A stretch of DNA of 64,000 bases, from assembly GCF_026151205.1 (NCBI RefSeq), contig NC_087079.1, positions 496,001-560,000 on the forward strand, in the 5' to 3' direction. Both the position numbers and the translations under genes were made by a program. Positions 11,157 through 61,288 of the stretch are shown here, piece after piece (position 1 is the first letter of the stretch; the number at the start of each line of letters is the position of its first letter). This DNA comes from Bolinopsis microptera (lineage: Eukaryota; Ctenophora; Tentaculata; Lobata; Bolinopsidae). The notes under the pieces are model-generated. The model was not told where the DNA came from and made no database searches. It saw only the letters and a list, made by a program, of their open reading frames with translations.

Positions 11157-11604
11157 AGAATACTTTCTTGAATATTTTCGATAGTTTTTAATATTGGTAA
11201 TATTAATGAATTGTAATTGATTGATATGTAATATTTAGGCCCGTGGCCAGTTTTCACAAAGTATATTCTTTACCTGATGTGTAACGGCACACACCTAGCC
11301 TGTAGTAAGTAAAGCTCTTGTGTGATCGATGATTCTATTGCACAGATTGTGGTAGGCACCACTAAATATCTCGAAATGCTTTGGATGCATGTAAACAGGC
11401 AGCCCTGTTTCTATTCGAAGTTCTTTAGAGGATGACACAGACCGAGACCACCAGAGTCTGCAGCTACTTCAACTGTGCTCATTAGGGGTCCTACCTTCCT
11501 GGTAATCCAATAGTTTTTCTTTAATTGTATAACCTGACATCTCATGTTAATTACCACAGCGTATAGCATCAGTCTACTGAGAAGCATGATCCAACTGTTT
11601 TACT
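11157..11604. other. No recognised gene
   Basis: Spacer between the retroelement fragment and a CA microsatellite. It may include upstream exons or promoter of the following 14-3-3 gene, but I cannot identify them. Confidence 0.4.

Positions 11605-11700
<96 letters not shown>
11605..11700 (+). repeat. (CA)n microsatellite
   Basis: About 48 uninterrupted CA dinucleotides, 270 bp upstream of the first 14-3-3 start codon and probably within or upstream of its 5'UTR intron. Confidence 0.97.
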
Positions 11701-11702
<2 letters not shown>

Positions 11703-11945
11703 CGAGTGAAGGTAGAGTAACTTGACAGTCTTTGAATAGTATCCTTTTCCTCCATCATGTACTTGTACTTGTATTCAAGAGAAACACATTACCAGCATAG
11801 GGGCAGTTACAGTGCAGCGATAAGAGATAAAAAACTGCTAAGATTATCAGCACACTTATCAATTACGAATTTTAAACATTAGTAATGTTGTGTATTTTGA
11901 TTTCTTCGCTATTCTGAGTAAACATTTATGAAAAAGTTTTTAATA

Positions 11946-11967
11946 TACTAACCTGGCCATGTTTCAG
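11946..11967 (+). promoter_or_regulatory. Putative branch point and 3' splice site in the 14-3-3 5'UTR
   Basis: TACTAAC, then a short pyrimidine-containing spacer, then CAG immediately before AATG. The spacing of about 14 nt is short but plausible for a small-intron invertebrate. Confidence 0.55.
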
Positions 11968-11968
11968 A

Positions 11969-12691
11969 ATGACTTCAAGTAACCATGTTGCCATTGCTCG
12001 TCTGGCAGAGCAAGCTGAAAGGTATAATGATATGTCCTTTGAGATGAGGAAACACATTGAAGCGCTTAATGGAGACATCTCAGAGGATGACCGAAACCTG
12101 TTCTCAGTCGCTTATAAGAATGTTGTTGGACAAAGGAGGTCATCTTGGAGAGCCATGTGTGGTATCGAAAAAAAGCTCAACGAAAGCGATGCTAAATTAG
12201 CTCAAGTAAAAAATTACAAGGAGAAAATCGAAGCAGAGTTAACAGATCTTTGTAATGAAGTCTTGAGGATTCTTGATGACCTTTTAATACCAAATGCCAG
12301 TGAAAGTAAAGAGAAAGTGTTTTACATGAAAATGAAAGGAGATTATTTACGATATCTTGCTGAAATTCAGAAGGAGTCTGATGAAAAGGACAGCATAAAT
12401 AATGCTAGGCAAGTGTATCAGGATGCATGGGATATTTCTGAGAAAGAGTTGGAATCCACACATCCTATCCACCTGGGCCTTGCTCTCAACTTCTCTGTGT
12501 ACTACTTTGAAATTCTAGATGACAAGGTCAAAGCATGTGATCTTGCAAAGAAAGCATTTGATGATGCAATCAGTATGCTTGATAATCTGAAGGAGGAATC
12601 GTACAAGGACAGCACGTTAATCATGCAGTTGTTAAGAGACAATCTTACCCTCTGGAGTGCAGATGGAGAAGATGAGGATGAAAATCAATAA
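11969..12691 (+). CDS. 14-3-3 protein, epsilon-like, single coding exon
   Basis: This 240-residue protein is a complete 14-3-3, an all-helical dimeric adaptor that binds phosphoserine/phosphothreonine motifs in the cytosol. The phosphate-binding residues are in place by alignment to known family members: K50 (YKNVVG), R57 (RRSSWR), and R128/Y129 (YLRYLAE). The signature [18 protein letters not shown] lies near the C-terminus. The acidic tail ending DEDENQ and the LNFSVYYFEIL segment resemble the epsilon class. Length is slightly shorter than vertebrate epsilon (255). The coding region is intronless, unlike the neighbouring gene. TACTAAC (11946-11952) followed by TTTCAG (11962-11967) two bases before the ATG looks like a branch point and acceptor, so a 5'UTR intron is likely and the gene is not an obvious retrocopy. 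An ATTAAA polyadenylation signal lies at 12926-12931. Confidence 0.95.
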   Translation: MTSSNHVAIARLAEQAERYNDMSFEMRKHIEALNGDISEDDRNLFSVAYKNVVGQRRSSWRAMCGIEKKLNESDAKLAQVKNYKEKIEAELTDLCNEVLRILDDLLIPNASESKEKVFYMKMKGDYLRYLAEIQKESDEKDSINNARQVYQDAWDISEKELESTHPIHLGLALNFSVYYFEILDDKVKACDLAKKAFDDAISMLDNLKEESYKDSTLIMQLLRDNLTLWSADGEDEDENQ

Positions 12692-12925
12692 GGCTTGTAA
12701 TTACGATAATTCTCACTTAGGACATAGATATGAACCGTTGTGAACTTTGCTGGCTATTTCATATGAGTGAATCAGGAATTTTCCAGAAGAAATTGATTTG
12801 AAATGATTTTTTGTGTTACAGTAAAACCATATTTATTATATAACATGTAATTGAATTGCATCATGTATTTTAGGTCTAGAAGTTAATATTCGTTTTGTTA
12901 TTGTATGTGCTCATTTTCAACTGTC

Positions 12926-12931
12926 ATTAAA
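12926..12931 (+). terminator. Putative polyadenylation signal (ATTAAA)
   Basis: A canonical variant hexamer 235 bases after the 14-3-3 epsilon-like stop codon, in AT-rich 3' sequence. Confidence 0.4.
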
Positions 12932-14209
12932 GTATTTGTTGGTTTATTATCAAATTCTAAGCTTATATTTGTAGTTCATTTGGTTACCAATTCGGTAAGT
13001 TTAGAATTAAACATAAATTTATACTCACTTGGCACAGCCCTGGAGGTGATTTAATTATCTTTGTACTTATTTAATCGATCTTAATCTGTCTGCTGTCATC
13101 ATGTTCGCAATTATGTAGACTGTAGAGGAGGAATGTAAGGAATATAATGTTTTTCACATTGTTCCTAATTCTCGAACTCACTTTGCCTTGATATCTGTAA
13201 ATAATGCAATATAGAAATATTTGAAGAGTTCTTGTTTTAGGAGCATATTGCATACTTAAATCTACAACAATCACCTGTGTTTTCTGAACAGTCTACTTGA
13301 ACCTAATCCAGATATACATTTGGCCGCCAGAATACAGAAAATTATCGAGATGTTTAAGTTTAAAATTCATCTCATTTGAAAATTTCTTATGTTTTACCAA
13401 GTGAATTTTGTTAATGGCTATGTATGATATTTTTGACAATTTTCACCTAAGGATCAAGGAACTAAGAAAAAAGCATTTATTTTAACTGTTTTAGACCTTC
13501 AGTATCTTGAAGTGGGCATGGCCCTTGAAAAGATGGTTTATATTTTATTCATCAACTAGATACATTTATTTTCAAATCGCTATGTTTGTATTTATGGTTG
13601 CCTTGGTGATGATCTTTATTTTGGGACTAGATGGCAACTGTTAGAATCCCATATTAAGTAAAATTAAAGTCATTTTCGACCCGGCTGCATACATTGTTTT
13701 CAAGACTATTTCTGTATTGCTTAGAATTTGTAATTTTGGTATTCTGTTCGATACAAAAGAAAGGTATTTAATTTAAGTTGATATATTACCATTTGTCAAG
13801 ATCAAATAAATTGGCACATATTTAGTCGACAGTGTAGCATGCTTCGTATCACATCTTGTATTATGTTGTGTTTTGTTGTGTTTTCAGCAATTAATTATTT
13901 ACATGTTTTTGTTTTGCCATACTACCAGACCGTTATTGTTTCCTATATTCTCAACTCACTTCAATGATCCAATTCCTTTGCATCTTGAAATAGTTCTTAC
14001 CACCATAATATGTTTATATCTACCAACGGTCAACACAACCGTGAAGTCATGTGCATTCACAAAAACGTTTTGAAATTATTATTATTATTAATTACGAATT
14101 ATTTGTTACACTTGTCAGAAAATAAGTGAAGGATGTTAACATTTAATCTTGTTATAGCACACAAGTGTCAGTCTATTGATCAAGTGACGTTGTCTCTGCC
14201 AGCAAGGAA
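12932..14209. other. Intergenic between the 14-3-3 genes
   Basis: AT-rich, with no recognised coding sequence. TGTCTCTGCCAG ending at 14202 resembles a splice acceptor 7 nt before the next ATG, suggesting that the zeta-like gene also has a 5'UTR intron. Confidence 0.4.
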
Positions 14210-16670
14210 ATGACCACTGACTTGAACGACCACGACACCCTCATCATCCTCGCTAAATGGGCCGAATCTGCTGAACGTTACGATGACATGGCTGATTACA
14301 TGAAGAAGGTAAGCTTGAAACGTGCAGGAAACAGCGATATTTTGAGAAACTCCATATTTAAAAGGAAACCCAAGAAATACGAAATCATTAAACTTTCCAT
14401 GATGCTTAAGCGTTCAGCTAGCTATACAACTTGCTGATGTTTCTTCTCCAGGTCACAGAAGCCAGCACCGAGCTGAGTCAGGAAGTAAGAAACCTGCTCT
14501 CTGTAGCTTACAAGAACGTTGTCGGTGCCCGACGATCTTCTTGGAGGGTCCTCTCTTCACTGGAGACCAAGGTAAGGAAGAATCCCTTAAGGAAGCCCAT
14601 GCACTGTTCTTTTGTTGTTTTCTCAGCTTCTGAAGCCAGGTCGCACACATTTCTCATTGGGCGGAAAAATGAAGCCGTAAAACATTATTTAAAAGCCAGT
14701 GGAATGTAAGATCAAAAAGCTGATAAAATGTTGGTTTCAGTAGAGCGACGAGCATGTTAGACCTTTAACTTATTCTAGCAAATCTAGAAACCATTTCCAT
14801 ATCACGATCACCCAACATTCATTTGTTTGAAATAAAATAAATCAGGTACAATTTTGCATTGTATGATGTTGAAGAAGCCCACAGTAAAGTTTTGCAAATC
14901 AAAGTGTCTAAATTTTAGATCACAACCGTAGCTTTTTCACCGTGTCAAAAACAAGTTGATTTCGTAGTAAAAACAAGTGGGTCATCCCAATTGATGATTT
15001 ACTGAGGAGGTTTTAGTTGAATATAACCAATACTTCAGTTTTACCCATGTTAAATGTTACCATGGTTACTGTGATACACTTGAATGTCGTTATACCTCAA
15101 TTCCAACAACTATTTTTTGTATTGCAACATGACTTGTGATTATCTTTTCCCAAAGAGCAGACGCTATTTTCCATGCATTGCACATGATGCATTTTGTGAC
15201 TCAGTGATTATTCTTTAGTAGTTGATGATGTTGATGTTTTATCTGTTTTGCTTTCTGTACTCAGATCAGGGGTTAGCATTTATTGTGGCAGGAGCACTGG
15301 CGCAAAATTTATACAAATCTTCAACAATTTGTATGTCGTTATTATTCTTTAAAAATGGCCCGAAAAGTAAAATAATGCTCCGAAATTTGCTCTAGAACCG
15401 CAATAAATGCTGGCTCCTGTTGCAGGTGATGAATCAGAACGATGACAAGAAAGTAGCTCTTGCAAAGGACTACAAAAAGAATGTGGAAGAGGAGTTGACC
15501 GCCTTGTGTGAAACAGTCCTCAGTCTTTTGAACGACCACCTAATTCCCAATGCTAAAGAAATTGAGAGCCAGGTGCAGTGGTTTTACTGTCTTATCAACC
15601 GTCTTATCAACCATCTTTTGTAGAAGTTATTGGGCTTCAGATTATGAGCTACACGATTTAAGAAATGGTTCTGAATTTATACAGTGAAGTCCGCTCTTAG
15701 GTATTCTACTTGAAGATGAAAGGTGATTATTACCGATATCTAGCTGAAGTTGCCAGTGCAGAAAAGAAAGAAGAAGTGGTACAGAAGTCTCACGACTCCT
15801 ATGAGGAAGCCTCCAAGGTTGCAGATGAGCTGGACCCCACTCATCCAGTAAGACTGGGACTAGCTCTCAACTATTCCGTCTTTTTCTACGAGATTGGTGG
15901 TAAGAACCTTTGTTTATGTAAAATGTTTTTGGCTCCTGCCATTATTTATGAAGTTTAGAGATTGTGTCTACTACCCGCTCATACCATGACCAGTAGTGTT
16001 AAGTCCATACTAATTGGTTAATCTGTCACTAATTGAAGAGGGGTTATAGTGACCTGGGTGCAGTTAATCTTGCTTGCATATTAAAGAACCATTAAAACCC
16101 GCTCTTTAGCAGTGCCCACATACATTGTCAGGGCTAACTCTCAACTAGTTAAAACACTGCCTTATAACTCTTATCACAGCTTCTGATTAACATCAGATGT
16201 GCATATATTGTGGTTTTAAACTTCTAGCATAATATGTGGACTACATAATGTTAGACAAATGATCGAACCAAGTTAAAAGGCTGCCGATCAGTAAGCTTTA
16301 AACAATTTTAGCTGAACACATAAAAACCAGCATGATATGATAATGTCACTAGTTGACTGACCCATCGCTCGAGCTATCGAGAATAGTTGTGCAGATGAAT
16401 GTAAACTCTACTTGCTACAATCTAAAGGGGAGAGTTCATACCATCATGATTGTGGGGTTTTTGATTCAATTATGGATATTTTCAGGGCAACCTGACGAAG
16501 CATGCAAACTTGCCAAGAATTCGTTTGACGCAGCTGTAGCAGAGCTGGATAACCTGGACCAGGAGAGTTACAAAGATAGCACATTAATAATGCAGCTCCT
16601 CCGAGACAATCTCACTCTGTGGATGAGTGAACAAGAAGACGGAGAAGAGGCTGCAGGAGACAAAGAATAA
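14210..16670 (+). CDS. 14-3-3 protein, zeta-like, five exons (isoform a)
   Basis: Coding exons: 14210-14308, 14452-14571, 15426-15572, 15701-15899 and 16486-16670. All junctions are GT-AG and sum to 750 nt, giving 249 residues. Exons 1-2 (residues 1-73) encode the N-terminal dimerisation helices and binding residues K54 and R61 ([13 protein letters not shown]). Exon 3 begins in phase 0 at VMNQNDDKK. Exon 4 carries R134/Y135 ([10 protein letters not shown]). Exon 5 carries [18 protein letters not shown] and an acidic tail. The sequence resembles the zeta/beta class of metazoan 14-3-3 adaptors. The last three exons are duplicated downstream at 17539-18325, so this may be one gene with two alternative 3' halves. 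The intron between exons 2 and 3 is about 850 nt. Confidence 0.95.
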
Positions 16671-17538
16671 GTAGTGGACCATTGACTGGGTCACATGTGA
16701 CCATGGACCCTTCATATTAATGCTGCCATGATACAAGAACTCAGTGACCTGCCCGTATAATATTTGTTAGCTGTCCTAATGAAACTTTAAACATTCGGGG
16801 TCTCTGTTTAAGAATATTTCTATCAATTATTCGTCGTGCATACTGTAACTCGTTTTAATGACTAGGTTTTCTAACATCTTCCTAGCTCTGTAATATCGAG
16901 CTGGATATTACCAGTATTGGTACGATATTATGAAGGAGTATTCATTTCGGACTCAAAAATATTATCTTCCTGGTCACAAGAATTTTTTTCTACTAAAAAT
17001 ATTTTCTACGTTAACCACACTTGTATTCACCTCACTTTATTAAGTATTGAGAGTTCCTTTGATTTTTGTTGTTCGAGGTCACTTGTTGACTGATGATGAT
17101 TTAACTGTTTGTTACAATATTGGACAAATTCCCGCCTCATTTTTAGAATTTATGTTATGAAAATTTTAATTTCTTTTAATATATCTGATACTTTCATTTC
17201 TACAATGATCACTCAATCACAGAAATTAATTTTAGCTTCTCTTGAAGCCGGCAAACTCGAACTTGTAGCCTTAAATTTGGATAGAAATGTTGATCTGAAG
17301 ATACTGATAAGACGGTCGTCTAGCTCCGTGAATATACTGGTCTGACCTGCCCTGGATGCAGCAAACTTGAAATGTGTGATACCTAGGATTCAGAAGCTGG
17401 GATATAGATTGTACCTTTTTTAATAAAGAGGGCTTCAGTGGACTTGCAATTGCCTTCACAATCGTGATTAATGCTGTGAAATAGGTTGCACATTGTTAAC
17501 CGCATTACTTATAGCTTTGTTAATTGAGGGTATTGCAG
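16671..17538. other. Spacer / 3'UTR of isoform a, no exons 1-2 found
   Basis: I looked here for a second copy of the MTTDLND and YKNVVG exons and found none. The TTTTTAGAATTTATGTTATGA region (about 17140) is echoed at about 18870-18920, so some flanking 3' sequence was duplicated as well. Confidence 0.5.
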
Positions 17539-18325
17539 GTGATGAACGACGAGAAGAAGGTAGGATTAGCTCGGGACTACAAGAAGAGGGTGGAAGATGA
17601 ACTGACTGCCCTGTGCGAGACCGTACTGGGTCTGCTCAACGAATATCTTATTCCGAATGCCAGCGAACACGAGAGCAAGGTTTCTTTTCTTTTCTCTGAT
17701 TCTAATTCTGTCAAGGGCCTGAATAAAGGTTCTGTGCTAGTTAGATGTATTATTGTATATGAATCGAAGGTTTATATTATTTGTAACTAAAACATATGCC
17801 AGGTGTTCTACATGAAGATGAAGGGAGATTATTACCGGTACCTGGCAGAGGTAGCTAACGCCGAGAAGAAGGACGAGGTTGTACAACAGTCCCACAAGTC
17901 CTATGATGAGGCTACTGACGTTGCACAAAACCTGGAGCCCACCCACCCTGTCCGACTGGGACTTGCACTTAACTACTCCGTCTTCCACTACGAAATTGAA
18001 GGTAAGATCGCATTTCAGTTGTGCATCATTGCATCGTTCGTTTTGATGCCGATATTAAATACTAGATACTCTGATTCAAGATATTCCAATTAAAGGTGCT
18101 CTGAACAGTTCAACTCTTCTTAATTTTATCAATATCTTAGGTTGTCCTGAGAAAGCTTGCAAACTCGCTAAGGAATCCTTCGATAAGGCTGTAGCAGAGT
18201 TGGATAACCTTGACCAGGAGAGTTACAAAGATAGCACATTAATAATGCAGCTTCTCCGAGACAATCTCACTTTGTGGATGAGTGAACAAGAAGACGTTGA
18301 GGATAACGCAGGGGACAAAGACTAA
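17539..18325 (+). CDS. 14-3-3 exons 3-5, second copy (alternative 3' half or partial gene)
   Basis: Three exons, 17539-17679, 17803-18001 and 18141-18325, are collinear with exons 3-5 of the preceding gene. The reading phases are the same (0, then 0, then 1), and exons 4 and 5 have identical lengths (199 and 185 nt). They encode [26 protein letters not shown] with the R/Y pair, and [18 protein letters not shown], ending at TAA 18323-18325. No copy of exon 1 or 2 is visible between 16671 and 17538. The frame is open throughout, and most differences from the first copy are conservative or silent, suggesting selection. Spliced to exons 1-2 (14210-14571), it would give a 247-residue 14-3-3. Otherwise it is a truncated tandem duplicate or an assembly gap. 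Confidence 0.85.
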
Positions 18326-20818
18326 AGTTAGCGCGCAAGACTGGGACTCGCGTGCAATGCGCAACACAGCGCTCCGTAGTGCGCTCCATAGTGCTGCTGA
18401 CATGTCTTGACAAATCTGTGTGCTACCTTGATCCGTATATAATATTATATGTGTAACAACATAAATCATAATATAGGTCTCTCGGTTACCTTTGGGGTTG
18501 ATTTATGTCATATGAACAATATATGATGTATGCTTATTTTATAGTATTATAAAGGCGTTTAAAACGACTCATCTAGATGTTATATACAGTCCTTACTTGT
18601 TTCATTTTAGGAGTTTTTGGATGGTTGGTTCGATGTCATGACGCTTTAATTGATCAATTTGCTGGCCACTAATTGCAATATTAGCGTTCAAGTTAAAAAC
18701 ATTTTCTATATTAATTATACCCCTTTCCTTATTGAAAAGTGATTAAAATTTCCTTTAATTTTTTATGACGTTCGGAAGTCACTAGATGACGATTGATGAT
18801 TTATCCTAAGTTATAGTGCTTTTCTAAATTTTCTAAGTTAACCTGGGACCAATACGGGATCCTCGCCTCATTTTTAGAGATTTGTTTTATGAAAATTTTA
18901 ATTTCTTTTAAGATACCCGATGCTTTCATTTCTTTAGTCATTGCCATTTGACATGCGCCTATATAGAATCGGTACAAAAATTTGGGTTTTTTCCAAATTT
19001 TCTTTGGTCATTAACTTTGTGGTGTTACATGAATGATAATTAGGAAAACTTTTGTGATATATATCAAATGATTGATTATTAACATTTGTTTCCAACTTAA
19101 TTTAGTATATGGATCCTTTTGTTATTCACCGAAAAAATTGTATGAAACGAATCATTCCAGTTTTTTAAAGAATACTTGTGCGAAAAACCAGGCCGCTAGT
19201 AAGTAAGACTTGTACAATATTATGTAGATCTTATACTTAAGACACTTCCATGGAATTATGTAGAATTTGTTCGGAATAAATTCCTAATCAGTACCAGATG
19301 CTACTACATTTCACAGAAAGCCCATGGGAATCAAATTACAAACTCATTACCATTCATCTTAAGTTAGCTGTAGAAGAACTGTAGATAACTTCCTTGACAT
19401 AAGTCATAGCCTGCATATATAAAATTGGTAGGTTCTGATAAACTCTAATTTGTTATAATAAAGAATGCTGAACTACTGATTTATCCAGACAACAGCCTCC
19501 TTGCTAGAGTATTTCAGTATAGTGTATACTGGGTATACTGTGTGCTGTTCTATCGCCAACAATTGCATTCTATAGAAGATACGTATCTATTGTTCTATTA
19601 AACAGATAGCAGATGTTTCCTAAATGTACCCTGGTTGCTGTAAGGCGTGGAGTGTAGTAGGCGTGGAGTGATGACATTAACCGTAATTATCACTTTTGTT
19701 CTGGATTTAGAAAAATGTAACTGTTATTACTGCATGACTCCTACACAATAATATGTATTTAGATAAGTTAAGACTTTCCGTCCTTTTATTCACAAGCTTT
19801 CATACATAGAATATATATATGTATCTTCCAAGAAAAGTGTCGAATAGTTATAAATATTATCAGAGTCACAGCATTGATCACGTGAGAACAGGACATGTAG
19901 CTGTAATGTGTGCCACCTTACACCCCACTAGCTCTGGATTGTCCCACTGTTGCCATGGTGATACTGGTATTAGAAAGGGGGATTTCCCGCCACATCCCTC
20001 AGTAAGGTGATATGTGTATTAGTTTCGTGAGCCTGGACAGTCGTCATTTCCAGATACTGAGAATACATTAAGTAGCCCCCCGGCCCCCACTATAGTGCAC
20101 TATCCCCCCCCCCACTATAGTGCACTATCTCCTTCATCTGAGAGGTGAGGCTCACATCCCACTCGTGATTATCAGATATCATCTAAAGCAGTGTGCAGAA
20201 TCTTGTGTCAGATCACATGTCAGATATATAACTGCAGGCTGCTTCTAGCCAGCTGTGGTATTGTTTCGGCTGGGAAGTACACGTGTAACAGTGTGGTACG
20301 TGTTTTGTTGTGTCTTGTGTGCGTCCTGTCAATAGTGTATAGAGTGGGTTAATTCTGATCATATATTTGACACATATTTAAAGTATTACTAGTGCAGTGT
20401 TTGATAGGATAACTATCGTTTCCATTACGTATCCCGTACTACTGACGCAATATTTGACGTTTAATGAAGACCATTTAGTCGGATCACATTTAAATAACGG
20501 TAAAGATGATGTCAGTGACTGAAATATAAGGCTGTTAGAATGTGCGAGATAACAGGCTACATTTCAACACTACATTGTACACTCAGATAATGGAGGGTGG
20601 GTGTGGTACATTCCAGCAGTACATTTAGCCGTTACACTCCTGGTGGGCGGCTTACATTCCTTAAACAGCTTTCTTAGCTACATTCTGTTAAAACAGCGGT
20701 ATTCTACAGTGCTTCAATCAAGTGGGTGATTTTATGTGCTGTTTATTTAGAATATACCTTACGTAATCTGACCACAGTGGTCTCATCTTGGTAGGAAGGT
20801 GTGTCATCTTTACAAGCG
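18326..20818. other. No recognised gene
   Basis: AT-rich. Around 18720-18930 it resembles 16990-17190 (attenuated similarity downstream of both 14-3-3 stop codons). A short duplicated CACTATAGTGCACTAT occurs near 20090-20130. No coding sequence recognised. Confidence 0.4.
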
Positions 20819-24595: not shown

Positions 24596-25063
24596 TACAA
24601 TTATTACATTTAATTGTAAATTTCCCCTTCCATTAGATAGTTAAGCACCTTTATTAGACGATTATATAGGGCCGGCGGTATTGTACACCTGCTTATAATA
24701 TATCCAAGTGATGTTGGTTTTGAAAATATCAGAGACTTACAAAATTATAAATATTAAATATTTGCAGCAATTAGTGCGAGACAAAGTCCTAGTCCTTAGT
24801 CATCTTTGTGGGCGATTGTTCACTATTATGTACTGATTATTACACACAAGTAACAATTCTCATGATTTGCCGTGCACTGGATGAGAATATTCAAAAGAAG
24901 CTGAGTAGTAAACTGTACCAGGAACACCACTGTAACACTACGTAATGAACTGTAAATGTAATAACACTACTACTCACTGTGTATTAGTTATGCAAGTTGG
25001 GGCGCTCATTTTGCTTCTTATCACAGTAAATATGTGCGGTTAAAGTAAAGCCTTCACAGTAAC
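24596..25063. other. Spacer between minisatellites
   Basis: AT-rich, with no recognised gene. Confidence 0.4.
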
Positions 25064-28000
25064 GCAGTGAATAGTGACTTGTATAGTGCAGTGTATGGTG
25101 ACTTGTATAGTGCAGTGACTTGTATAGTGCAGTGAATAGTGACTTGTATAGTGCAGTGTATAGTACAGTGTATAGTGCAGTGTATAGTGCAGTGACTTGT
25201 ATAGTGCAGTGTATAGTGACTTGTATAGTGCAGTGAATAGTGACTTGTATAGTGCAGTGTATGGTGCAGTGAATAGTGACTTGTATAGTGCAGTGTATAG
25301 TGACTTGTATAGTGCCGTGAATAGTGACTTGTATAGTGCAGTGAATAGTGACTTGTATAGTGCAGTGTATGGTGCAGTGAATAGTGACTTGTATAGTGCA
25401 GTGTATAGTGCAGTGAATAGTGACTTGTATAGTGCAGTGAATAGTGACTTGTATAGTGCAGTGTATAGTGCAGTGAATAGTGACTTGTATAGTGCAGTGT
25501 ATAGTGACTTGTATAGTGCAGTGTATGGTGCAGTGAATAGTGACTTGTATAGTGCAGTGTATGGTGCAGTGAATAGTGACTTGTATAGTGCAGTGAATAG
25601 TGACTTGTATAGTGCAGTGAATAGTGACTTGTATAGTGCAGTGTATGGTGCAGTGAATAGTGACTTGTATAGTGCAGTGTATAGTGCAGTGAATAGTGAC
25701 TTGTATAGTGCAGTGAATAGTGACTTGTATAGTGCAATGTATAGTGCAGTGAATAGTGACTTGTATAGTGCAGTGTATGGTGCAGTGAATAGTGACTTGT
25801 ATAGTGCAGTGTATAGTGCAGTGAATAGTGACTTGTATAGTGCAGTGAATAGTGACTTGTATAGTGCAGTGTATGGTGCAGTGAATAGTGACTTGTATAG
25901 TGCAGTGTATAGTGCAGTGAATAGTGACTTGTATAGTGCAGTGAATAGTGACTTGTATAGTGCAGTGTATGGTGCAGTGAATAGTGACTTGTATAGTGCA
26001 GTGTATGGTGCAGTGAATAGTGACTTGTATAGTGCAGTGTATAGTGCAGTGAATAGTGACTTGTATAGTGCAGTGAATAGTGACTTGTATAGTGCAGTGT
26101 ATGGTGCAGTGAATAGTGACTTGTATAGTGCAGTGTATAGTGCAGTGAATAGTGACTTGTATAGTGCAGTGAATAGTGACTTGTATAGTGCAGTGTATAG
26201 TGCAGTGAATAGTGACTTGTATAGTGCAGTGTATGGTGCAGTGAATAGTGACTTGTATAGTGCAGTGTATAGTGCAGTGAATAGTGACTTGTATAGTGCA
26301 GTGAATAGTGACTTGTATAGTGCAGTGTATAGTGCAGTGAATAGTGACTTGTATAGTGCAGTGTATAGTGCAGTGTATAGTGCAGTGAATAGTGACTTGT
26401 ATAGTGCAGTGTATATTGACTTGTATAGTGCAGTGTATGGTGACTTGTATAGTGCAGTGTATAGTGACTTGTATAGTGCAGTGTATAGTGCAGTGTATAG
26501 TGACTTGTATAGTGCAGTGTATAGTGCAGTGTATAGTGCAGTGTATAGTGCAGTGTATGGTTAATAGTGACTTGTATAGTGCAGTGTATAGTGCAGTGTA
26601 TAGTGCAGTGTGACTTGTAAAGTGCAGTGTATAGTGCAGTGTATAGTGACTTGTATAGTGCAGTGACTTGTATAGTGCAGTGAATAGTGCAGTGTATAGT
26701 GCAGTGTATAGTGACTTGTATAGTGCAGTGTATAGTGCAGTGTATAGTGACTTGTATAGTGCAGTGTATAGTGACTTGTATAGTGCAGTGTATAGTGACT
26801 TGTATAGTGCAGTGTATAGTGCAGTGTATAGTGACTTGTATAGTGCAGTGTATAGTGCAGTGACTTGTATAGTGCAGTGACTTGTATAGTGCAGTGACTT
26901 GTATAGTGACTTGTATAGTGCAGTGTATAGTACAGTGTATAGTGACTTGTATAGTGCAGTGTATAGTGCAGTGTATAGTGCAGTGAATAGTGACTTGTAT
27001 AGTGCAGTGTATGGTGCAGTGAATAGTGACTTGTATAGTGCAGTGTATAGTGCAGTGAATAGTGACTTGTATAGTGCAGTGAATAGTGACTTGTATAGTG
27101 CAGTGTATAGTGCAGTGAATAGTGACTTGTATAGTGCAGTGTATAGTGACTTGTATAGTGCAGTGTATGGTGCAGTGAATAGTGACTTGTATAGTGCAGT
27201 GTATGGTGCAGTGAATAGTGACTTGTATAGTGCAGTGAATAGTGACTTGTATAGTGCAGTGAATAGTGACTTGTATAGTGCAGTGTATGGTGCAGTGAAT
27301 AGTGACTTGTATAGTGCAGTGTATAGTGCAGTGAATAGTGACTTGTATAGTGCAGTGAATAGTGACTTGTATAGTGCAATGTATAGTGCAGTGAATAGTG
27401 ACTTGTATAGTGCAGTGTATGGTGCAGTGAATAGTGACTTGTATAGTGCAGTGTATAGTGCAGTGAATAGTGACTTGTATAGTGCAGTGAATAGTGACTT
27501 GTATAGTGCAGTGTATGGTGCAGTGAATAGTGATTTGTATAGTGCAGTGTATAGTGCAGTGAATAGTGACTTGTATAGTGCAGTGAATAGTGACTTGTAT
27601 AGTGCAGTGTATGGTGCAGTGAATAGTGACTTGTATAGTGCAGTGTATGGTGCAGTGAATAGTGACTTGTATAGTGCAGTGTATAGTGCAGTGAATAGTG
27701 ACTTGTATAGTGCAGTGAATAGTGACTTGTATAGTGCAGTGTATGGTGCAGTGAATAGTGACTTGTATAGTGCAGTGTATAGTGCAGTGAATAGTGACTT
27801 GTATAGTGCAGTGAATAGTGACTTGTATAGTGCAGTGTATAGTGCAGTGAATAGTGACTTGTATAGTGCAGTGTATGGTGCAGTGAATAGTGACTTGTAT
27901 AGTGCAGTGTATAGTGCAGTGAATAGTGACTTGTATAGTGCAGTGAATAGTGACTTGTATAGTGCAGTGTATAGTGCAGTGAATAGTGACTTGTATAGTG

Positions 28001-30131
28001 CAGTGTATAGTGCAGTGAATAGTGACTTGTATAGTGCAGTGTATAGTGACTTGTATAGTGCAGTGTATGGTGACTTGTATAGTGCAGTGTATAGTGACTT
28101 GTATAGTGCAGTGTATAGTGCAGTGTATAGTGACTTGTATAGTGCAGTGTATAGTGCAGTGTATAGTGCAGTGTATAGTGCAGTGTATGGTTAATAGTGA
28201 CTTGTATAGTGCAGTGTATAGTGCAGTGTATAGTGCAGTGTGACTTGTAAAGTGCAGTGTATAGTGCAGTGTATAGTGACTTGTATAGTGCAGTGACTTG
28301 TATAGTGCAGTGAATAGTGCAGTGTATAGTGCAGTGTATAGTGACTTGTATAGTGCAGTGTATAGTGCAGTGTATAGTGACTTGTATAGTGCAGTGTATA
28401 GTGACTTGTATAGTGCAGTGTATAGTGACTTGTATAGTGCAGTGTATAGTGCAGTGTATAGTGACTTGTATAGTGCAGTGTATAGTGCAGTGACTTGTAT
28501 AGTGCAGTGACTTGTATAGTGCAGTGACTTGTATAGTGACTTGTATAGTGCAGTGTATAGTACAGTGTATAGTGACTTGTATAGTGCAGTGTATAGTGCA
28601 GTGTATAGTGCAGTGTATAGTGACTAGTATAGTGCAGTGTATAGTGCAGTGTATAGTGCAGTGTATAGTGCAGTGTATAGTGCAGTGTATAGTGTAGTGT
28701 ATAGTGAATAGTGACTTGTATAGTGCAGTGTATAGTGACTTGTATAGTGCAGTGTATAGTGCAGTGACTTGTATAGTGCAGTGACTTGTATAGTGCAGTG
28801 ACTTGTATAGTGACTTGTATAGTGCAGTGACTTGTATAGTGACTTGTATAGTGCAGTGTATAGTGACTTGTATAGTGCAGTGTATAGTGCAGTGTATAGT
28901 GCAGTGTATAGTGCAGTGTATAGTGACTTGTATAGTGCAGTGTATAGTGCAGTGTATAGTGCAGTGTATAGTGCAGTGAATAGTGACTTGTATAGTGCAG
29001 TGTATAGTGCAGTGTATAGTGCAGTGTATAGTGCAGTGTATAGTGACTTGTATAGTGCAGTGTATAGTGACTTGTATAGTGCAGTGTATAGTGCAGTGTA
29101 TAGTGACTTGTATAGTGCAGTGTATAGTGCAGTGTATAGTGCAGTGTATAGTGACTTGTATAGTGCAGTGTATAGTGACTTGTATAGTGCAGTGTATAGT
29201 GCAGTGTATAGTGCAGTGTATAGTGCAGTGTATAGTGCAGTGTATAGTGCAGTGTATAGTGCAGTGTATAGTGCAGTGACTTGTATAGTGCAGTGACTTG
29301 TATAGTGCAGTGACTTGTATAGTGCAGTGACTTGTATAGTGCAGTGTATAGTGCAGTGTATAGTGCAGTGTATAGTGCAGTGTATAGTGCAGTGTATAGT
29401 GCAGTGTATAGTGCAGTGTATAGTGCAGTGACTTGTATAGTGCAGTGACTTGTATAGTGCAGTGACTTGTATAGTGCAGTGACTTGTATAGTGCAGTGAC
29501 TTGTATAGTGCAGTGACTTGTATAGTGTAGTGACTTGTATAGTACAGTGACTTGTATAGTGCAGTGTATAGTGCAGTGTATAGTGCAGTGTATAGTGCAG
29601 TGTATAGTGCAGTGTATAGTGACTTGTATAGTGCAGTGTATAGTGCAGTGAATAGTGACTTGTATAGTGCAGTGTATAGTGCAGTGTATAGTGCAGTGAA
29701 TAGTGACTTGTATAGTGCAGTGTATAGTGCAGTGTATAGTGCAGTGTATAGTGCAGTGTATAGTGCAGTGTATAGTGCAGTGTATAGTGCAGTGTATAGT
29801 GCAGTGTATAGTGCAGTGTATAGTGACTTGTATAGTGCAGTGTATAGTGCAGTGTATAGTGCAGTGTATAGTGCAGTGTATAGTGCAGTGTATAGTGCAG
29901 TGTATAGTGACTTGTATAGTGCAGTGTATAGTGCAGTGTATAGTGCAGTGTATAGTGCAGTGTATAGTGACTTGTATAGTGCAGTGTATAGTGCAGTGTA
30001 TAGTGCAGTGTATAGTGCAGTGTATAGTGCAGTGTATAGTGCAGTGTATAGTGCAGTGTATAGTGCAGTGTATAGTGTATAGTGCAGTGTATAGTGCAGT
30101 GTATAGTGCAGTGTATAGTGCAGTGTATGGT
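25064..30131 (+). repeat. Megasatellite built from 12-bp units (about 5.07 kb)
   Basis: The array consists mainly of three 12-mers, AGTGACTTGTAT, AGTGCAGTGTAT and AGTGCAGTGAAT, in mixed order, with some shorter CAGTGACTTG junctions. Because 12 is divisible by 3, long open frames appear on both strands (up to 508 codons), with periodic YSAV/NSDL or HYTS/HYTL translations. I treat these as artefacts of the repeat, because no unique flanking domain joins them. An internal higher-order duplication spans about 25340-26980 and 26981-28610. Confidence 0.95.
25340..28610 (+). repeat. Tandem higher-order duplication, about 1.63 kb x 2, inside the megasatellite
   Basis: Rare landmarks recur at constant offset. 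AGTGCAAT lies at 25731 and 27373. ATGGTTAATAG occurs near 26557 and 28187, TGTGACTTGTAAAG near 26609 and 28239, and TACAGTGTAT at 26931 and 28561. The last three pairs are 1630 bp apart, and the first is 1642 bp apart, one 12-bp unit of difference. The precise ends are estimates. Confidence 0.85.
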
Positions 30132-30752
30132 TAAAGAGCAATATTGCCAAGGAAAAGCAGAATTATAAGCTAGAACAGTAAGCTGGAATATTAGTTCTAG
30201 TTTAAGAGGACCATGGCCATCTAACCTGTGTATGCATAATTACAGTGAATAATTCATACATAGCGTCAGTATGGTTGAGCAGTAAGATCAAGAATATACG
30301 TTAGTTACTAATATAGTATATACGTACGTAGTTTGTAGCTACACTTGTAGCGTGGCACACTTTACCAGGCCACTACTTCCCGGGGTTATTGACGTAATGT
30401 GACGGGGTAACGGCCCCACAAAGCTGTCACTTAATTAATAATTAGCATAACAGATTATACTGCCTGCAGTGAGTTACACTGTGAGAGTGAGTGAGTGAGT
30501 GAGAGTGAGTGCGTTTACACAAGCTACCCGGGGTTCAATAGTGGAGAAGTTAGGGGTCCAACTATAGATTTAACTGCTGTTCACAATAAATCGATCTAAA
30601 TTTACATTTTATGACATTTTCTGCAGAAAGTATAACAATACTTCTCATTGCAACGTACATTATAAAACATTTGAACTAGTCATAGTTTTAGGTGGGATGA
30701 CATAACACAAGTGCTGCGCTGCAAAGACTTCCTGCTCTGAGGAATCCGTGGA
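30132..30752. other. Upstream region of CEP19
   Basis: About 620 bp between the megasatellite and the CEP19 start, presumably containing its promoter. A GTGAGTGA microsatellite lies at about 30483-30511. I see no clear TATA box at a useful distance. Confidence 0.4.
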
Positions 30753-31265
30753 ATGTTTGCCCCCAAGAAGTGTGGTATACGTTACGAGCCTCCCACTCTA
30801 GTAGTAGAGTACGTGGTACTGGCTACTGGCAAGCTCCACAGGAGGAGTATGCCGCTCAGAGACGTCACCGCTAACAGTAACCCTGACAACGAGGCCAGGA
30901 AGTTCAAAAACAATCCTAAACACGGTAAGTATTTGGAAAAGATTTCGCAAGAGAAGCTGTCAAGGATTTTGAGTAAATGTATCAAGTTTCTGAAGGGGGC
31001 AGCAGCTATCGGGTCCAACAAGCCAGTCAGGCTGAACTTGGACGATGATTTTATGGGGGGTTCCACAGACATGGACATGAACAAGCTCAATGACTCTGAA
31101 CTGCAGTTCGAGAAATCTAAAATGAACAAAGATTTTATGGAGAAGCAGATAAGACCTGGTGACCCTGATTACGAGTATGACAAGGAAGTAAATTACGGGA
31201 GTGGGAATCTTGGTGATGTGGAATGTGACTGGGACGAGTCCGAGAACTCGGACTTCAGCTTTTAA
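30753..31265 (+). CDS. CEP19: Centrosomal protein CEP19 orthologue
   Basis: A 170-residue protein in one exon. It opens with KKCGIRYEPPTLVVEY, matching the vertebrate CEP19 start (KKCGIRFQPP). The family landmarks then follow in order: a basic MPLRD segment, KFKNNPKHGKYLEKIS, LNKLNDSEL-type sequence (DMNKLNDSELQFEKSKM), and the acidic end DPDYEYDKEV, then CDWDESENSDF (vertebrate CGWDTESADEF). Length is close to the vertebrate protein (about 165). From family knowledge, CEP19 sits at the mother centriole and basal body and recruits RABL2 to start intraflagellar transport. The start at 30753 places KKCGIR at residue 5, as in the family. No coding intron is seen. It lies 0.6 kb after the megasatellite, and no neighbour suggests a shared function. 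Confidence 0.92.
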   Translation: MFAPKKCGIRYEPPTLVVEYVVLATGKLHRRSMPLRDVTANSNPDNEARKFKNNPKHGKYLEKISQEKLSRILSKCIKFLKGAAAIGSNKPVRLNLDDDFMGGSTDMDMNKLNDSELQFEKSKMNKDFMEKQIRPGDPDYEYDKEVNYGSGNLGDVECDWDESENSDFSF

Positions 31266-54530: not shown

Positions 54531-54648
54531 CCTATGTGACATTGCGCATTGTTAACACGAAACAAAACCGCGCAAAATATGAAGTGGTACGTCTACAACC
54601 AAACCACAAATCGACGTGACGGCGACACGTTTTGGAATCAACATCGAG

Positions 54649-54896
54649 AATACATCTAATGATGCTACTATCAATATCATATTATGTAAATGTTCAGGGC
54701 CCTTCTGTAAAAACATTAAGAATACATCTAATGATGCTACTATCAATATCATATTATGTAAATGTTCAGGGCCCTTCTGTAAAAACATTAAGAATACATC
54801 TAATGATGCTACTATCAATATCATATTATGTAAATGTTCAGGGCCCTTCTGTAAAAACATTAAGAATACATCTAATGATGCTACTATCAATATCAT
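54649..54896 (+). repeat. 72-bp minisatellite, left part (about 3.4 units)
   Basis: The unit contains AATACATCTAATGATGCTAC, then GTTCAGGGCCCTTCTG. It stops at TATCAATATCAT (54896), and the same unit resumes at ATTATGTAAATG (60813). Since 72 is divisible by 3, a frame stays open through it into LINE ORF1. Confidence 0.95.
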
Positions 54897-54921
54897 CTTA
54901 CTATATATAAAGCGAGACGAT

Positions 54922-56765
54922 ATGCTGAGTGATAGCTCAGATGGTATCAGCTCGCAAGAAGATAGCGCAGATGAATGGGAAACACCAGCAGAAAACTCAA
55001 ACCCAGACGTAAAACTGAAAGAGCTCGAAAAGAAAACAAAGGCACCCATTACTTCTAAAAACAAGCGCGCAAGAAAGAAAAAGGAAACATCTAAAGTTGG
55101 TACATCTACAGGATCTAATCAAACTGATACTTTGGTGAACTGCGACTCTTGTAGTCTTGTAAGTCCATAACAGAAGGCCCTCTGAAGGTGCTCCAGGAAT
55201 GCCTAATTCGACTACAAGATGACATATGTAAGCAAAATGCAATCATCGAAAATCTTGCGATCCAAACCAGAACCATGCAGGAGCAACACCCCAACCCAAA
55301 AACTCCCCCGCCAAACAAGAGATTAGAAGCAAACAACAAACTAATATTCGAAACTCTCAATACCCAGCAAACTTGTTTGGACACAATTACAGACTCTCTC
55401 AGTAAAATGAAAAAAGATTACACTAAAACGAAGAACAAAATCGACGCCCTAGAGCCGAATGTGCAGAAAACGAAAAAGAGTATAACTACTGACCTGATGA
55501 ATCCCACAACCAAGGTCAATAATAATGCAACATCTTCTCCGCAAGTTGCTAAACGAGAATGCATACCTGAGTATGCAGAAACCTCACAGCGTCAACAAAC
55601 AATGATACTTTGTGTACTAGCAGCGTTGTGGCGTGACAACCAGGAACTGAAATCCTCCTTAAAAGAAATGAGAGGAATGTCCACCAAAGACAAATCTTTC
55701 GATCAAGCTAAAAGCAAAGCTGGAATAGAAAAGGAAAAGTCCTCAAACAACAATGGGGCTCAAAAAACCAGAGGCACTAATGAATTGAGTAACATGAAGC
55801 ACCACAACACAGAGTTGTCTTCATTCAGTTCAACGACCAAGGAACCACAAAAGGATGCTTGTGCTATGACGGAAAACTCAGGAATCTTCAGAATCGCGGA
55901 AAAGGACCTCCCTCAAACTACCAACACATCAGAGAAAATAATCCTGAACAGCACAAAAACTAAGGAAAACGAAAAGAATGACGCCCCACCTGATGACTCG
56001 ACAGATTGGAATATGTCAACAAACTCTGATTCGAGAAAACATCTACTTCCCAATCCTAAGACAAACCAGCTGAGGAAAACAAACATCCTAACCAACTGCA
56101 AAGCTAATCTTCCTTTTACTGGACCAAAGAGTAGTCAAAGCAAAAAGTTCAATACACACAAATGTCTCATTGTGCATGATGCTTACTTCGACAAATTCGA
56201 GCAGGACAAATTCTCACGAGTCTTTGACATCAGCCGTCTAAAAGAAAAATCTGCTGAATCTACCATCAAGAACGGAAATCTGATTTCACGGATCAAGGCA
56301 GTCAAACCAGAAACTGTAGTTATTCACGTTGGTTTCGGTGACGTGCTGTGCAATACAGAAGGCAACACCATAACAAATAACTTTAAAAAGATTATTTACA
56401 ATGTTTTAGAGAATACCTCAACCAAACTATGTGTTTCGCTTATGATACCAGTACCAGGATACCCTGAAACCAATAGTAGACTACGGCAGATCAACAACAC
56501 CTTAAGGGAATCTATATCCTGCGAAAGAACCTCTCACAAGTACAAGGATCGCCTATTTACAACCAACAACGACTCTCTAGGAGGATACATAGAAAGAAAA
56601 AGCAATGACAATGGAAAAGCAAGTATCCAACTTAGTGAACGTGGACAATCTAGGCTTTGGCTACGAGTACGTCTCAGAGACAGTCTGCAGCGCTGTGTAG
56701 GAATCCAAACACCATCAAAACAAACAAACAACAGAACCCTACGGAACGATTCACTACATGAATAA
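54922..56765 (+). pseudogene. LINE ORF1, degenerate SGNH-hydrolase-like, one frameshift
   Basis: The first part (54922-55169) encodes a charged segment starting MLSDSSDGISS. Translation then needs a shift of frame between about 55155 and 55170 to enter the 525-codon frame (55188-56765; its first codon in the track is GTG, so the true start is probably the upstream ATG). The middle is low-complexity, K/N/S/T-rich, with a likely coiled-coil near the start. The last 200 residues resemble the esterase domain of CR1/L2-type ORF1: CLIVHDAYFDKF, then VVIHVGFGD, then SIQLSERGQSRLW. Where active SGNH enzymes have GDS, GxND and DxxH, this has HDA, GFGD and a Q in place of H, so it should be inactive. 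ORF1 proteins bind RNA and assist retrotransposition. Confidence 0.75.
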
Positions 56766-59700
56766 CGATCACAAGAAAAGGCATAGTGAGGTAGAATATA
56801 AAAACTGTGATTTGTCGATCCTCTCCTGGAATATTCACGACATTAATCACCAAACCCTTGGGAAGAAAACGGATCAAAATGAATTTACCAGAATTCTAAC
56901 CAGCGGTTTAATTTTCTGCCTCCAAGAAACAAAAGGGAATGTCGAGCTTCCCCAGTATAAATGTTTTAACAAACTAAGGTCTGACTCACGATCAGGTGGT
57001 CTCTGTATCGGTGTTCACAGATCTATTAGTGAATTTGTAAGGCCTATTATGTGTGAATCACAAGACATCTTGGCTGTAAATATCTCAACTACAGCTACTG
57101 GGCTCAGCAAGGACCTAATGCTTATAAATGTGTATGACTCTCCTCCCAACTCATCTTACAAATTAAAAAAGCTCGCCTTGGGCTCGGATGTAGACACAAT
57201 GGGGCATACTCTTGAATTCATTGCGTCACTTAAGACCAAAGCGATACTTCTAGTTGGGGACTTCAACGCAAGAACAGGTAACCTTAACGCAGATGAAGCG
57301 GTTCAACCCTGCAATGAGGAATTCACAACAGGTCAAATCGAGTCCTACCCTTCTTACCACAAACAACGAGCAAGCAGGGACCCCGTCATCAATGACCGGG
57401 GTAAAAAATTTCTAGACTTAATTCAGAGCTGTAATATGTCTATCCTAAATGGATCCACTCTAGGTGACATATTTGGCGAATCGACGTCACACCAATACAA
57501 TGGAACTAGTATTGTGGACTATATGGCATTATCAAACGACACACGACATGTCATCAAACATTTCAAAGTCCTTGAGCTCTCCGACCTATCAGACCATCGG
57601 CCGCTGCTGTGCTCTTTGAAATCAACTCAGAAAATAATAGACTCAGAATCAGCTCTCAACCTTTACGATGATGTACAAGAAAAGGTGCAGTGGAATGGTG
57701 AGCAATCAGCAGAAGAATACAAAGCAAGGCTCCTTAAGCTAAGTACGCTTAAAACTATCTCTGACCTTGTTGACGAAGTATGTCACTCTGAAGAAGACGT
57801 CCACAGACTTAACCTTAGATTAACCAGACTCCTTGTGGACATCAACAAAGATGTAGAGGGTCCCCGAAAAAATCATATCACCAAGAAACGCAAGCCAAGA
57901 ATTCAGGCCAAAAATCGCTGGTTCGATGCAAAATGCATTATACTAAAACGAGAAGTCAACAAGCTTGCCAGAAAATATGGAAAACAGCCTAGAAACGATG
58001 TTATACGCATTGAGTACTACGCTAAGAAAAAGGAATACAAGCGTCTCATCAAGCATAAAAAATACCTGTTCTACAAAGAAATAAATGAAGACATCTTGCA
58101 AGACGGGCATATCTCATGGAAGGACTTCAATAAACTTAAAGATGCCAATAAAGAAAAGTCCGTACTTGACCTCTTCGATATAGAGAACTTTTATAAATTC
58201 TTTAAAGATCTGTACAAGACCAAAACAGTACCTAAAGAATTGGTGAAACTGAATGATGAAAGTGAAATCATCATCGACACTGAAATCCTTAACAGAGATA
58301 TCGACCAGGAAGAAATGAAGAAAGGCATCAAATGCTTACAAAATGGAAAGGCAGCGGGTATCGACTTAATTCTTAATGAGTTCCTCAAAACATCGACGGA
58401 CGAAGTTGTGAAACTCATTCAAAAACTCTTTAATGAATGTCTTAAGTTTGGTGTATACCCTTGGAACACCACTATCGTTACCCCTCTCCACAAAAAAGGT
58501 TGTCCACATGACCCGGATAACTATCGAGCAATCGCCGTGGGCAGCAATTTGGGCAAGTTATTTTCAAATATTTTGCTCAGTCGACTTCTCGAATTCAGAG
58601 CTGTACATTGCCCCGAATCACAGAACCAGAGAGGATTTTGCAAGGGGGCCCAAACCTCTGATCATATTTTCACACTTAACACCTGTATTGAAAAATATGT
58701 AAAAGTCCAACGGAAAAGAATCTACAGCTGTTTTGTAGACTTTCAGAAAGCGTTCGACACGGTATCAAGAGAAGCACTATTGTACAAACTAAATAAGCTT
58801 GGCATGCAGGGGCGGTTTTTTGACTGCCTCCAATACATGTACAGAAACTCAAAAGCAAGGCTTAAAATGGTTAAAAAGCTCTCAGCTTGTTTTGACGTTA
58901 ATGCAGGAACGGAACAGGGCCACCCCTTGAGCCCAGAACTCTTCAAATGCTATATCTACGAACTCTCCCTCCAGATTAACGCCCTACCCGGAGTGGAAAG
59001 TCCCCAACTCAACAACCAACAGATTACTCACCTGCTTTGGGCGGACGATCTGGTCCTGCTAGCCCTTAACAAGGTCAGTCTTCAGCTAATGATTGACCAA
59101 CTCCACATATTTTGCAATAACTGGGGATTGATTGTTAACATTAAGAAAACTGCGGTCATCATCTTCAATCCCTCAGGAAGGCAGTTACTCGAGAGTAAAA
59201 CATTTACCTACGGCAGAAGTATTGTAATCCCCTCGGTCAAAAGCTACTGCTACCTAGGTACTCATTTCACAATATGTGGCAGTATGAAGCTTAACCAAGA
59301 GCAGCTCAGGATCAAAGGACTTCGAGCATACTTCTCCCTGAAAAAGACGGTTGATCTCTCCTCAATTTCTAAAGAGGCTGTGTTCAAACTCTTCGATGCC
59401 CTTATACTTCCTGTCGTCTCATACGGTAGTCAGGTGTGGCTCCCCTATACCAACATTCTCAGCAACATCTGCCAGAAGAAAACACAGTCTGACAAAGACA
59501 CACTCAGTCAATTAGCGAATGACAGCATCGAGCGCCTGCATCTCTCGCTGCTAAAATGGACGACTGGGGTCAACAAGAGAACTTCAAATATCCCGATATG
59601 GGGAGACACAGGAAGATATCCCCTTGGAATACAATTGAGTAAGCTCTTTCTTGACTTCCACAACAGACTCGTCCTCCTTGACAGAAAAAACTCACCACAG

Positions 59701-60342: not shown

Positions 60343-60812
60343 CTTAGTATCCTTATTTCGTGCACAATTTGAAACCTTTTAATTATTTATTTAAGATATT
60401 ATGTTTTTATTTTGTTTGGTTGTATAACTTTCATTTAACTGATTGGGATCTGACACATGTAATTTTGTAATGATCTTTCTAATTTCTAATTTCTAATTTC
60501 TAATTTCTAATTTCTAATAATTTCTATGTGTATATATCCGTGCCATTTTACTGACACCACGGCATCAACTTTAACGCGACTTTCCGCAAAAACCGTAAAA
60601 CATATACAACTGAAACTTTTTTGACTGGGTCAAATGCTTTAATGGCCTTCAAATCAGCATGAAAAAAATAAAAAATTGGCCAAGGAATAATAATTTTAGT
60701 GCCCAAAATTTGGACTCTCAAGTGGTGTCAAAAACGCGAATTAAATAGGTAATAATTATTTTAGTCTCTCGAGTCTTGACACCACTTTAGGGTTAGACGG
60801 GTTCCTGCTAGT

Positions 60813-61288
60813 ATTATGTAAATGTTCAGGGCCCTTCTGTAAAAACATTAAGAATACATCTAATGATGCTACTATCAATATCATATTATGTAAATGTTCA
60901 GGGCCCTTCTGTAAAAACATTAAGAATACATCTAATGATGCTACTATCAATATCATATTATGTAAATGTTCAGGGCCCTTCTGTAAAAACATTAAGAATA
61001 CATCTAATGATGCTACTATCAATATCATATTATGTAAATGTTCAGGGCCCTTCTGTAAAAACATTAAGAATACATCTAATGATGCTACTATCAATATCAT
61101 ATTATGTAAATGTTCAGGGCCCTTCTGTAAAAACATTAAGAATACATCTAATGATGCTACTATCAATATCATATTATGTAAATGTTCAGGGCCCTTCTGT
61201 AAAAACATTAAGAATACATCTAATGATGCTACTATCAATATCATATTATGTAAATGTTCAGGGCCCTTCTGTAAAAACATTAAGAATC
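60813..61288 (+). repeat. 72-bp minisatellite, right part (about 6.6 units)
   Basis: Continues in register with 54649-54896. The two parts together make 724 bp, about ten whole units. Units are nearly identical. Confidence 0.95.

Follow-up and report, generated by a model that had tools for sequence, protein, structure and literature searches.

A 14-3-3 locus with one 5' half and two candidate alternative 3' cassettes

Single-locus 14-3-3 diversity in other animals

The 14-3-3 diversity of vertebrates (the YWHA genes) resides mostly in separate genes, and in most genes with alternative last exons the alternative ends are unrelated in sequence. The shrimp 14-3-3 forms ES and EL arise by splicing. 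In the published sources, shrimp ES and EL are described as two isoforms of one 14-3-3 type, 14-3-3 epsilon (PMC8478922), and Drosophila leonardo (14-3-3zeta) as one gene with three isoforms produced via mutually exclusive exons (PMC6071210, PMC3795638, PMC3364263). In leonardo, according to the same sources, one exon is chosen per cluster, competing RNA pairing has been reported, and the docker lies downstream of the cluster. Terminal exons are distinguished from mutually exclusive exons in the available text of PMC5740500, and in that of PMC4761220 14-3-3 is mentioned only where the Hippo pathway is described and in a reference. The first-pass annotation of this DNA had described animal 14-3-3 diversity as usually a matter of separate genes, a generalization that omits leonardo. 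Single-locus 14-3-3 diversity is already known from leonardo, and the three-exon 3' cassette layout described below would be a further form of it. In a literature search on 14-3-3 isoforms and ctenophore exon duplication, this layout is undescribed in the titles and abstract openings of the matches listed, among which subscription journals are thinly covered.

The locus analyzed here resembles leonardo in that a single 14-3-3 locus with constant and alternative parts would give several isoforms, and shrimp ES/EL in that two isoforms of one 14-3-3 type would occur in an invertebrate. Unlike leonardo, three terminal coding exons with their stop codon and 3' UTR would swap together here, and there is no shared downstream coding exon. 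When the start of intron 2 (14572-14900) was compared for RNA pairing with 15100-15425 and 17202-17538, 10 of 60 and 17 of 60 shuffles, respectively, were as good, so that pairing did not rise above shuffles in the single arrangement examined. The layout shares with alternative-last-exon genes its common 5' exons and, at each end, a separate acceptor, stop codon and predicted 3' UTR, the last judged from homology; it differs from most of them in that its two ends are homologous to each other, each a three-exon copy in which the fold is preserved. Relative to the vertebrate YWHA paralogs, both predicted products resemble zeta and gamma, with C-half identities of about 58-61%.

Layout of the locus and its predicted products

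The window, that is, the whole 64,000-nt stretch of DNA that was analyzed, contains on its + strand a two-ended 14-3-3 gene in which exons 1-2 (14210-14571) are present in a single copy and a three-exon 3' set is present in two, set A (15426-16670) and set B (17539-18325), with a separate stop codon per set. By translation, exon 1 (14210-14308, +, 99 nt) supplies the start codon and codons 1-33 and ends in phase 0 at a GT donor, and exon 2 (14452-14571, +, 120 nt), bounded by an AG acceptor and a GT donor, supplies codons 34-73, ends in phase 0 and carries K54/R61 (zeta K49/R56 by the residue map). Set A consists of exon 3a (15426-15572, +, 147 nt, phase 0 at both ends), exon 4a (15701-15899, +, 199 nt, ending in phase 1) and exon 5a (16486-16670, +, 185 nt with the stop). 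Set B consists of exon 3b (17539-17679, +, 141 nt, phase 0 at both ends), which has the same ttgcag acceptor as 3a and an in-frame stop at the sixth codon upstream; exon 4b (17803-18001, +, 199 nt, ending in phase 1); and exon 5b (18141-18325, +, 185 nt with the stop), whose later part hardly differs in DNA sequence from that of exon 5a. The introns of the gene are GT..AG throughout, the phases after exons 1/2/3/4 are 0/0/0/1 in both sets, exons 4 (199 nt) and 5 (185 nt) are of equal length in the two sets, and exon 3 is two codons shorter in B. The pyrimidine fraction of the acceptor tract is 0.50 for 3b, a weak value, 0.50 for 4b, 0.55 for 3a and 0.59-0.73 for the others.

The phase-0 donor of exon 2 fits the phase-0 starts of both 3a and 3b, and joining exons 1-2 to either set gives isoform A (249 aa) or isoform B (247 aa). 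Against the Pfam 14-3-3 family (PF00244, cut-off 33.2 bits), these score 324.5 and 324 bits, respectively, covering profile positions 1-222 of 223; among solved chains, A scores best with 14-3-3 gamma and B with 14-3-3 zeta. The first-pass annotation is thus borne out by the exon map, the GT/AG sites and the translation in its account of exons 1-2 as occurring once and exons 3-5 twice, with equal phases, equal lengths of exons 4 and 5, a stop codon for each set and a phase-0 exon 2 joinable to either; each join reads as a full-length 14-3-3. Its suggestion that one locus could make two 14-3-3 isoforms agrees with two complete predicted frames of about 324 bits each. Because all phases match, two further chimeras, 3a-4a-5b and 3a-4b-5b, both complete 249-aa reading frames, would be possible by exon skipping.

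We consider it probable, on the evidence of the genomic sequence, that the locus is one 14-3-3 gene in which exons 1-2 serve two alternative 3'-terminal cassettes, which would derive from an old partial tandem duplication. As homology shows, exons 3-5 were copied together with the 3' UTR, and exons 1-2 now stand without a second copy. On the other side are the weak acceptor tract of 3b and the intron 2 pairing scores, which did not exceed shuffles. Isoform A would arise by splicing of exon 2 to 3a and cleavage near a possible poly(A) signal, AATAAA at 17422-17427 (+), which a motif scan places 752 nt past the stop and 117 nt before 3b, the motif also being present in introns. For isoform B, set A would be skipped and exon 2 spliced to 3b, and the transcript would end near 19275 or 19457, where simple motif matching gives a possible AATAAA signal at 19275-19280 (+) and another at 19457. 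The phosphopeptide groove would be kept in both isoforms; the differences would lie in the outer surface, the loop preceding helix D and the K85 dimer salt-bridge position, so that the likely effect would concern dimer choice, surface contacts and separate 3' UTR control rather than the phospho-motif read.

Half count, selective constraint and rival explanations

Profile and protein searches covered 265 Mb in 232 contigs, with only the best candidates scored. The exon 1-2 protein gave 8 matches at E<=10 from 8 scored candidates, at five loci: the two-ended gene, an intronless neighbor (11969-12691) and genes on C1, C11 and C3. Six C halves were recovered (18 matches from 21 scored candidates), one at each of the five loci plus set B; two of the 18 matches, on C1 and C11 (profile 109-174), represent a diverged fragment and were not counted as a half. 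Set B is the only recognizable C half without an N half of its own. The copies of the diverged fragment also lack an N half, which shows that partner-less C-half pieces occur here, though these are far more diverged than B. No second copy of exons 1-2 was found between sets A and B in the genome search, in which the best candidates were scored and a very diverged pair could escape, and exon 2 is the only phase-compatible donor adjoining set B. It is therefore likely that exons 1-2 are shared by both sets, the main argument being the half count, given a correct assembly and sufficient search sensitivity. As for the source of 17202-17532, just before 3b, comparisons with intron 2 (its end and the whole), the upstream region, exons 1-2, intron 4a and two control stretches gave nothing clearly above shuffles; the best was intron 4a, with 9 of 100 shuffles as good.

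Other members of the family were observed in the same searches. The neighboring 14-3-3 gene with an intronless coding region (11969-12691, +) lies 1.5 kb upstream and is complete, with 240 aa and 303 bits; being about 50% identical to A and B, it is no recent retrocopy of the two-ended gene. A diverged 14-3-3 at C3:11746194-11746837 shifts frame after its N-terminal part; a frameshift or an unusual intron would be required to read it through, and it is possibly decaying. Two near-identical diverged 14-3-3-like fragments at C1:23055278 and C11:4645255, spanning about 1779-1988 and 1756-1965 of the respective extracted pieces, are about 31% identical to isoform A there and perhaps represent a copied or mobile piece. 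No relatives of the gene were confirmed in viral contigs. As to the host, innexins are present and a search for zf-C4 nuclear receptors, run without a positive control, gave no match, which would fit a lobate ctenophore such as Bolinopsis.

At the protein level the two sets share 80.5% identity across 174 aligned residues, with 34 substitutions and one two-residue gap. Over 174 codons, the comparison of synonymous and nonsynonymous change between the sets, which had been proposed earlier, gave a dN of 0.128, a dS of about 1.7 and a dN/dS (omega) of 0.074, pointing to purifying selection on B; pS between the sets is 0.81 in exon 3 and 0.75 in exon 4, both saturated, and 0.46 in exon 5. In a C-half tree of seven sequences, A and B are sisters with support of 100/100, and the protein branch of B (0.087) is shorter than that of A (0.196); the C3 paralog was excluded from this tree and from the alignment because its frame is broken or unusual. 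Since partial tandem copies are often non-functional, set B might be taken for a dead partial duplicate, but its open frame, intact splice sites and conserved 3' UTR, together with the low dN/dS, the saturated pS in exons 3-4 and the shorter branch, make that reading extremely improbable, and under neutral drift to 0.4 changes per site a copy of the same length stayed stop-free in about 0.1% of 2000 simulations. Given a dN/dS of this order combined with saturated synonymous change, set B is, as judged from its codons, under purifying selection and not debris. We regard as very improbable the possibility that set B gives an N-truncated protein starting at codon 2 of exon 3b, a Met. An ATG is indeed the second codon of this exon, and in-frame stops lie just upstream, but GTG ATG opens exon 3a as well, so that the Met of 3b is inherited. 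In 3b both the acceptor and the Val codon ahead of the Met are retained, and although the product would be missing helices A-C as well as half the phosphate pocket, its interface residues are unchanged.

Two other explanations place a separate gene behind set B. One supposes two complete tandem 14-3-3 genes, the second of which lost exons 1-2 in the assembly only, by collapse or misjoin. According to PMC10232365, the B. microptera assembly, if it is the same one, underwent gap closing and haplotig purging, which we counted in favor of this explanation. The same paper reports RNA-seq and Iso-Seq evidence used in annotating B. microptera. Elsewhere in the genome, two innexin pairs, C1:4254005/4378223 (124 kb apart, on opposite strands) and C7:6754013/6935049 (181 kb apart), each have identical match scores at two places of one chromosome; they are either recent duplications or uncollapsed haplotypes, and copies may thus be uncollapsed or misplaced. 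The window, however, contains 0 N in its 64,000 nt, and the 3' UTR homology of set A reaches 17201, leaving about 330 nt before 3b with no similarity to exons 1-2. Because synonymous sites of exons 3-4 are saturated, a collapse would also require near identity to have persisted in exons 1-2 alone, and we judge an assembly artifact improbable. Equally improbable, in our view, is a separate unit in which set B receives its 5' end from a distant or unrelated first exon, or by trans-splicing, without use of exons 1-2. Spliced-leader trans-splicing has been reported in ctenophores, which favors such a unit, as does the fact that the 3b acceptor could accept any phase-0 exon and that a first exon need not resemble 14-3-3. 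Against it, B retains residues of the dimer interface and the groove whose function depends on a 14-3-3 N half: it keeps K74, Y82, E89, R127 and Y128, whose working partners (helix A, K49 and R56) are coded only by exons 1-2, and these exons are the sole free N half in the genome search, in which the best candidates were scored.

If both isoforms are made from the shared exons, as the single-gene reading holds, the locus would provide an instance of 14-3-3 diversification by splicing at one locus outside bilaterians, as leonardo does in flies. It would also amount to a natural experiment in which a constant groove is combined with variation of the outer surface and of half the dimer interface, and which could show in what 14-3-3 isoforms differ when client reading is constant. 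More tentatively, and with appreciable doubt, we suggest that a non-bilaterian, probably a ctenophore, evolved a single-locus 14-3-3 isoform switch independently of insects, built on a C-terminal cassette of three exons that brings its own 3' UTR, a changed dimer pairing (Asn/Arg at K85) and a fixed client groove, the cassettes having been kept apart over saturating divergence, with exon 5 partly homogenized.

Swapped residues, 3' ends and neighboring features

The comparison of the isoforms covered 30 zeta positions, of which 11 fall within the shared half and 19 within the swapped one. The roles of these positions, salt bridges excepted, are those we presume for zeta, with one label uncertain. 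Of the positions in the swapped half, 18 of 19 groove and dimer positions are identical in A and B, comprising all 14 groove or phosphate positions and four of the five dimer positions, the exception being zeta K85, which is Asn in A and Arg in B. K49, R56, R127 and Y128 (zeta numbering), which we take to be the phosphate-binding residues of zeta, are all present in both isoforms. The dimer interface itself is split, helix A and part of helix C being common and helix D swapped, with zeta K74, Y82, K85 and E89 mapping to exon 3. With respect to the dimer salt bridges of 14-3-3, given as D21-K85 and R18-E89 in PMC3795638, the R18-E89 pair is kept in both isoforms and the D21-K85 charge pair in B only (as R); E5 is T in both. 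In A, the Asn at the K85 position may make one dimer contact weaker, and the swap should leave phosphopeptide reading unchanged, since the groove positions are identical. These results modify the first-pass annotation, which had assigned both K54/R61 and the dimer interface to the common half: the former placement holds, and the latter does not, as exon 3 carries K74, Y82, K85 and E89. Its assignment of R134/Y135 (isoform A numbering) to the swapped half agrees with the residue map. A fixed dimer interface does not fit four interface positions in the swapped exon 3, one of them different (K85; N in A, R in B), nor do swapped client-binding halves, understood as differing client reading, fit 14 groove/phosphate positions identical between A and B.

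Beyond the coding exons, the presumed 3' UTRs of set A (16671-17201, +) and set B (18326-18933, +) are homologous, with a local score of 81 against a maximum of 26 in 200 shuffles. They are most alike at their ends, where the blocks 17133-17201 and 18864-18933 share 90% identity despite saturated introns and saturated synonymous sites in exons 3-4; for intron 3, 165 of 200 shuffles were as good as or better than the A-B comparison, and for intron 4, 6 of 200, a borderline value. That similarity has lasted longer in the 3' UTR than in the introns suggests that both sets serve as mRNA ends and points to a putative regulatory element, although gene conversion could also have helped to keep the 3' UTRs alike. 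In the genome search, with very common words skipped, the conserved end block occurs only after set A and after set B, and a transposon origin of the shared block is unsupported by these two copies. No RNA fold of the conserved end stands out (z of 0.01 for A and 1.07 for B), and no Rfam match was obtained at gathering thresholds within 11500-20500.

Exon 5 displays a different pattern of divergence. In its later part, the DNA of A and B is 96% identical in two 50-column windows, and in a motif located there the sets differ at 2 of 17 degenerate codons, as compared with 11 of 17 between A or B and the intronless and C1 paralogs. Degenerate codons coding for the same residue are changed in 6 of 38 cases in the last part and in 57 of 98 elsewhere (Fisher p of 7e-6, with the cut chosen after looking), and the longest unchanged run, a test without a chosen cut, gave a p of 0.023. 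This looks like local gene conversion, which would make exon 5 seem younger than exons 3-4.

Several further features were recorded in the window. A tandem minisatellite of about 5 kb at 24984-30239 is open in several frames on both strands, with TALYKSL-like repeats; GC skew is strong across this region (0.56-0.58 over 26-30 kb). The stretch 54583-61305 contains a LINE-type ORF, with endonuclease and reverse transcriptase matches at 56701-60342, flanked on both sides by the minisatellite just described (NTSNDATINIILCKCSGPFCKNIK). A CEP19-like gene (Pfam PF14933, 138 bits) lies at 30741-31265 on the + strand.
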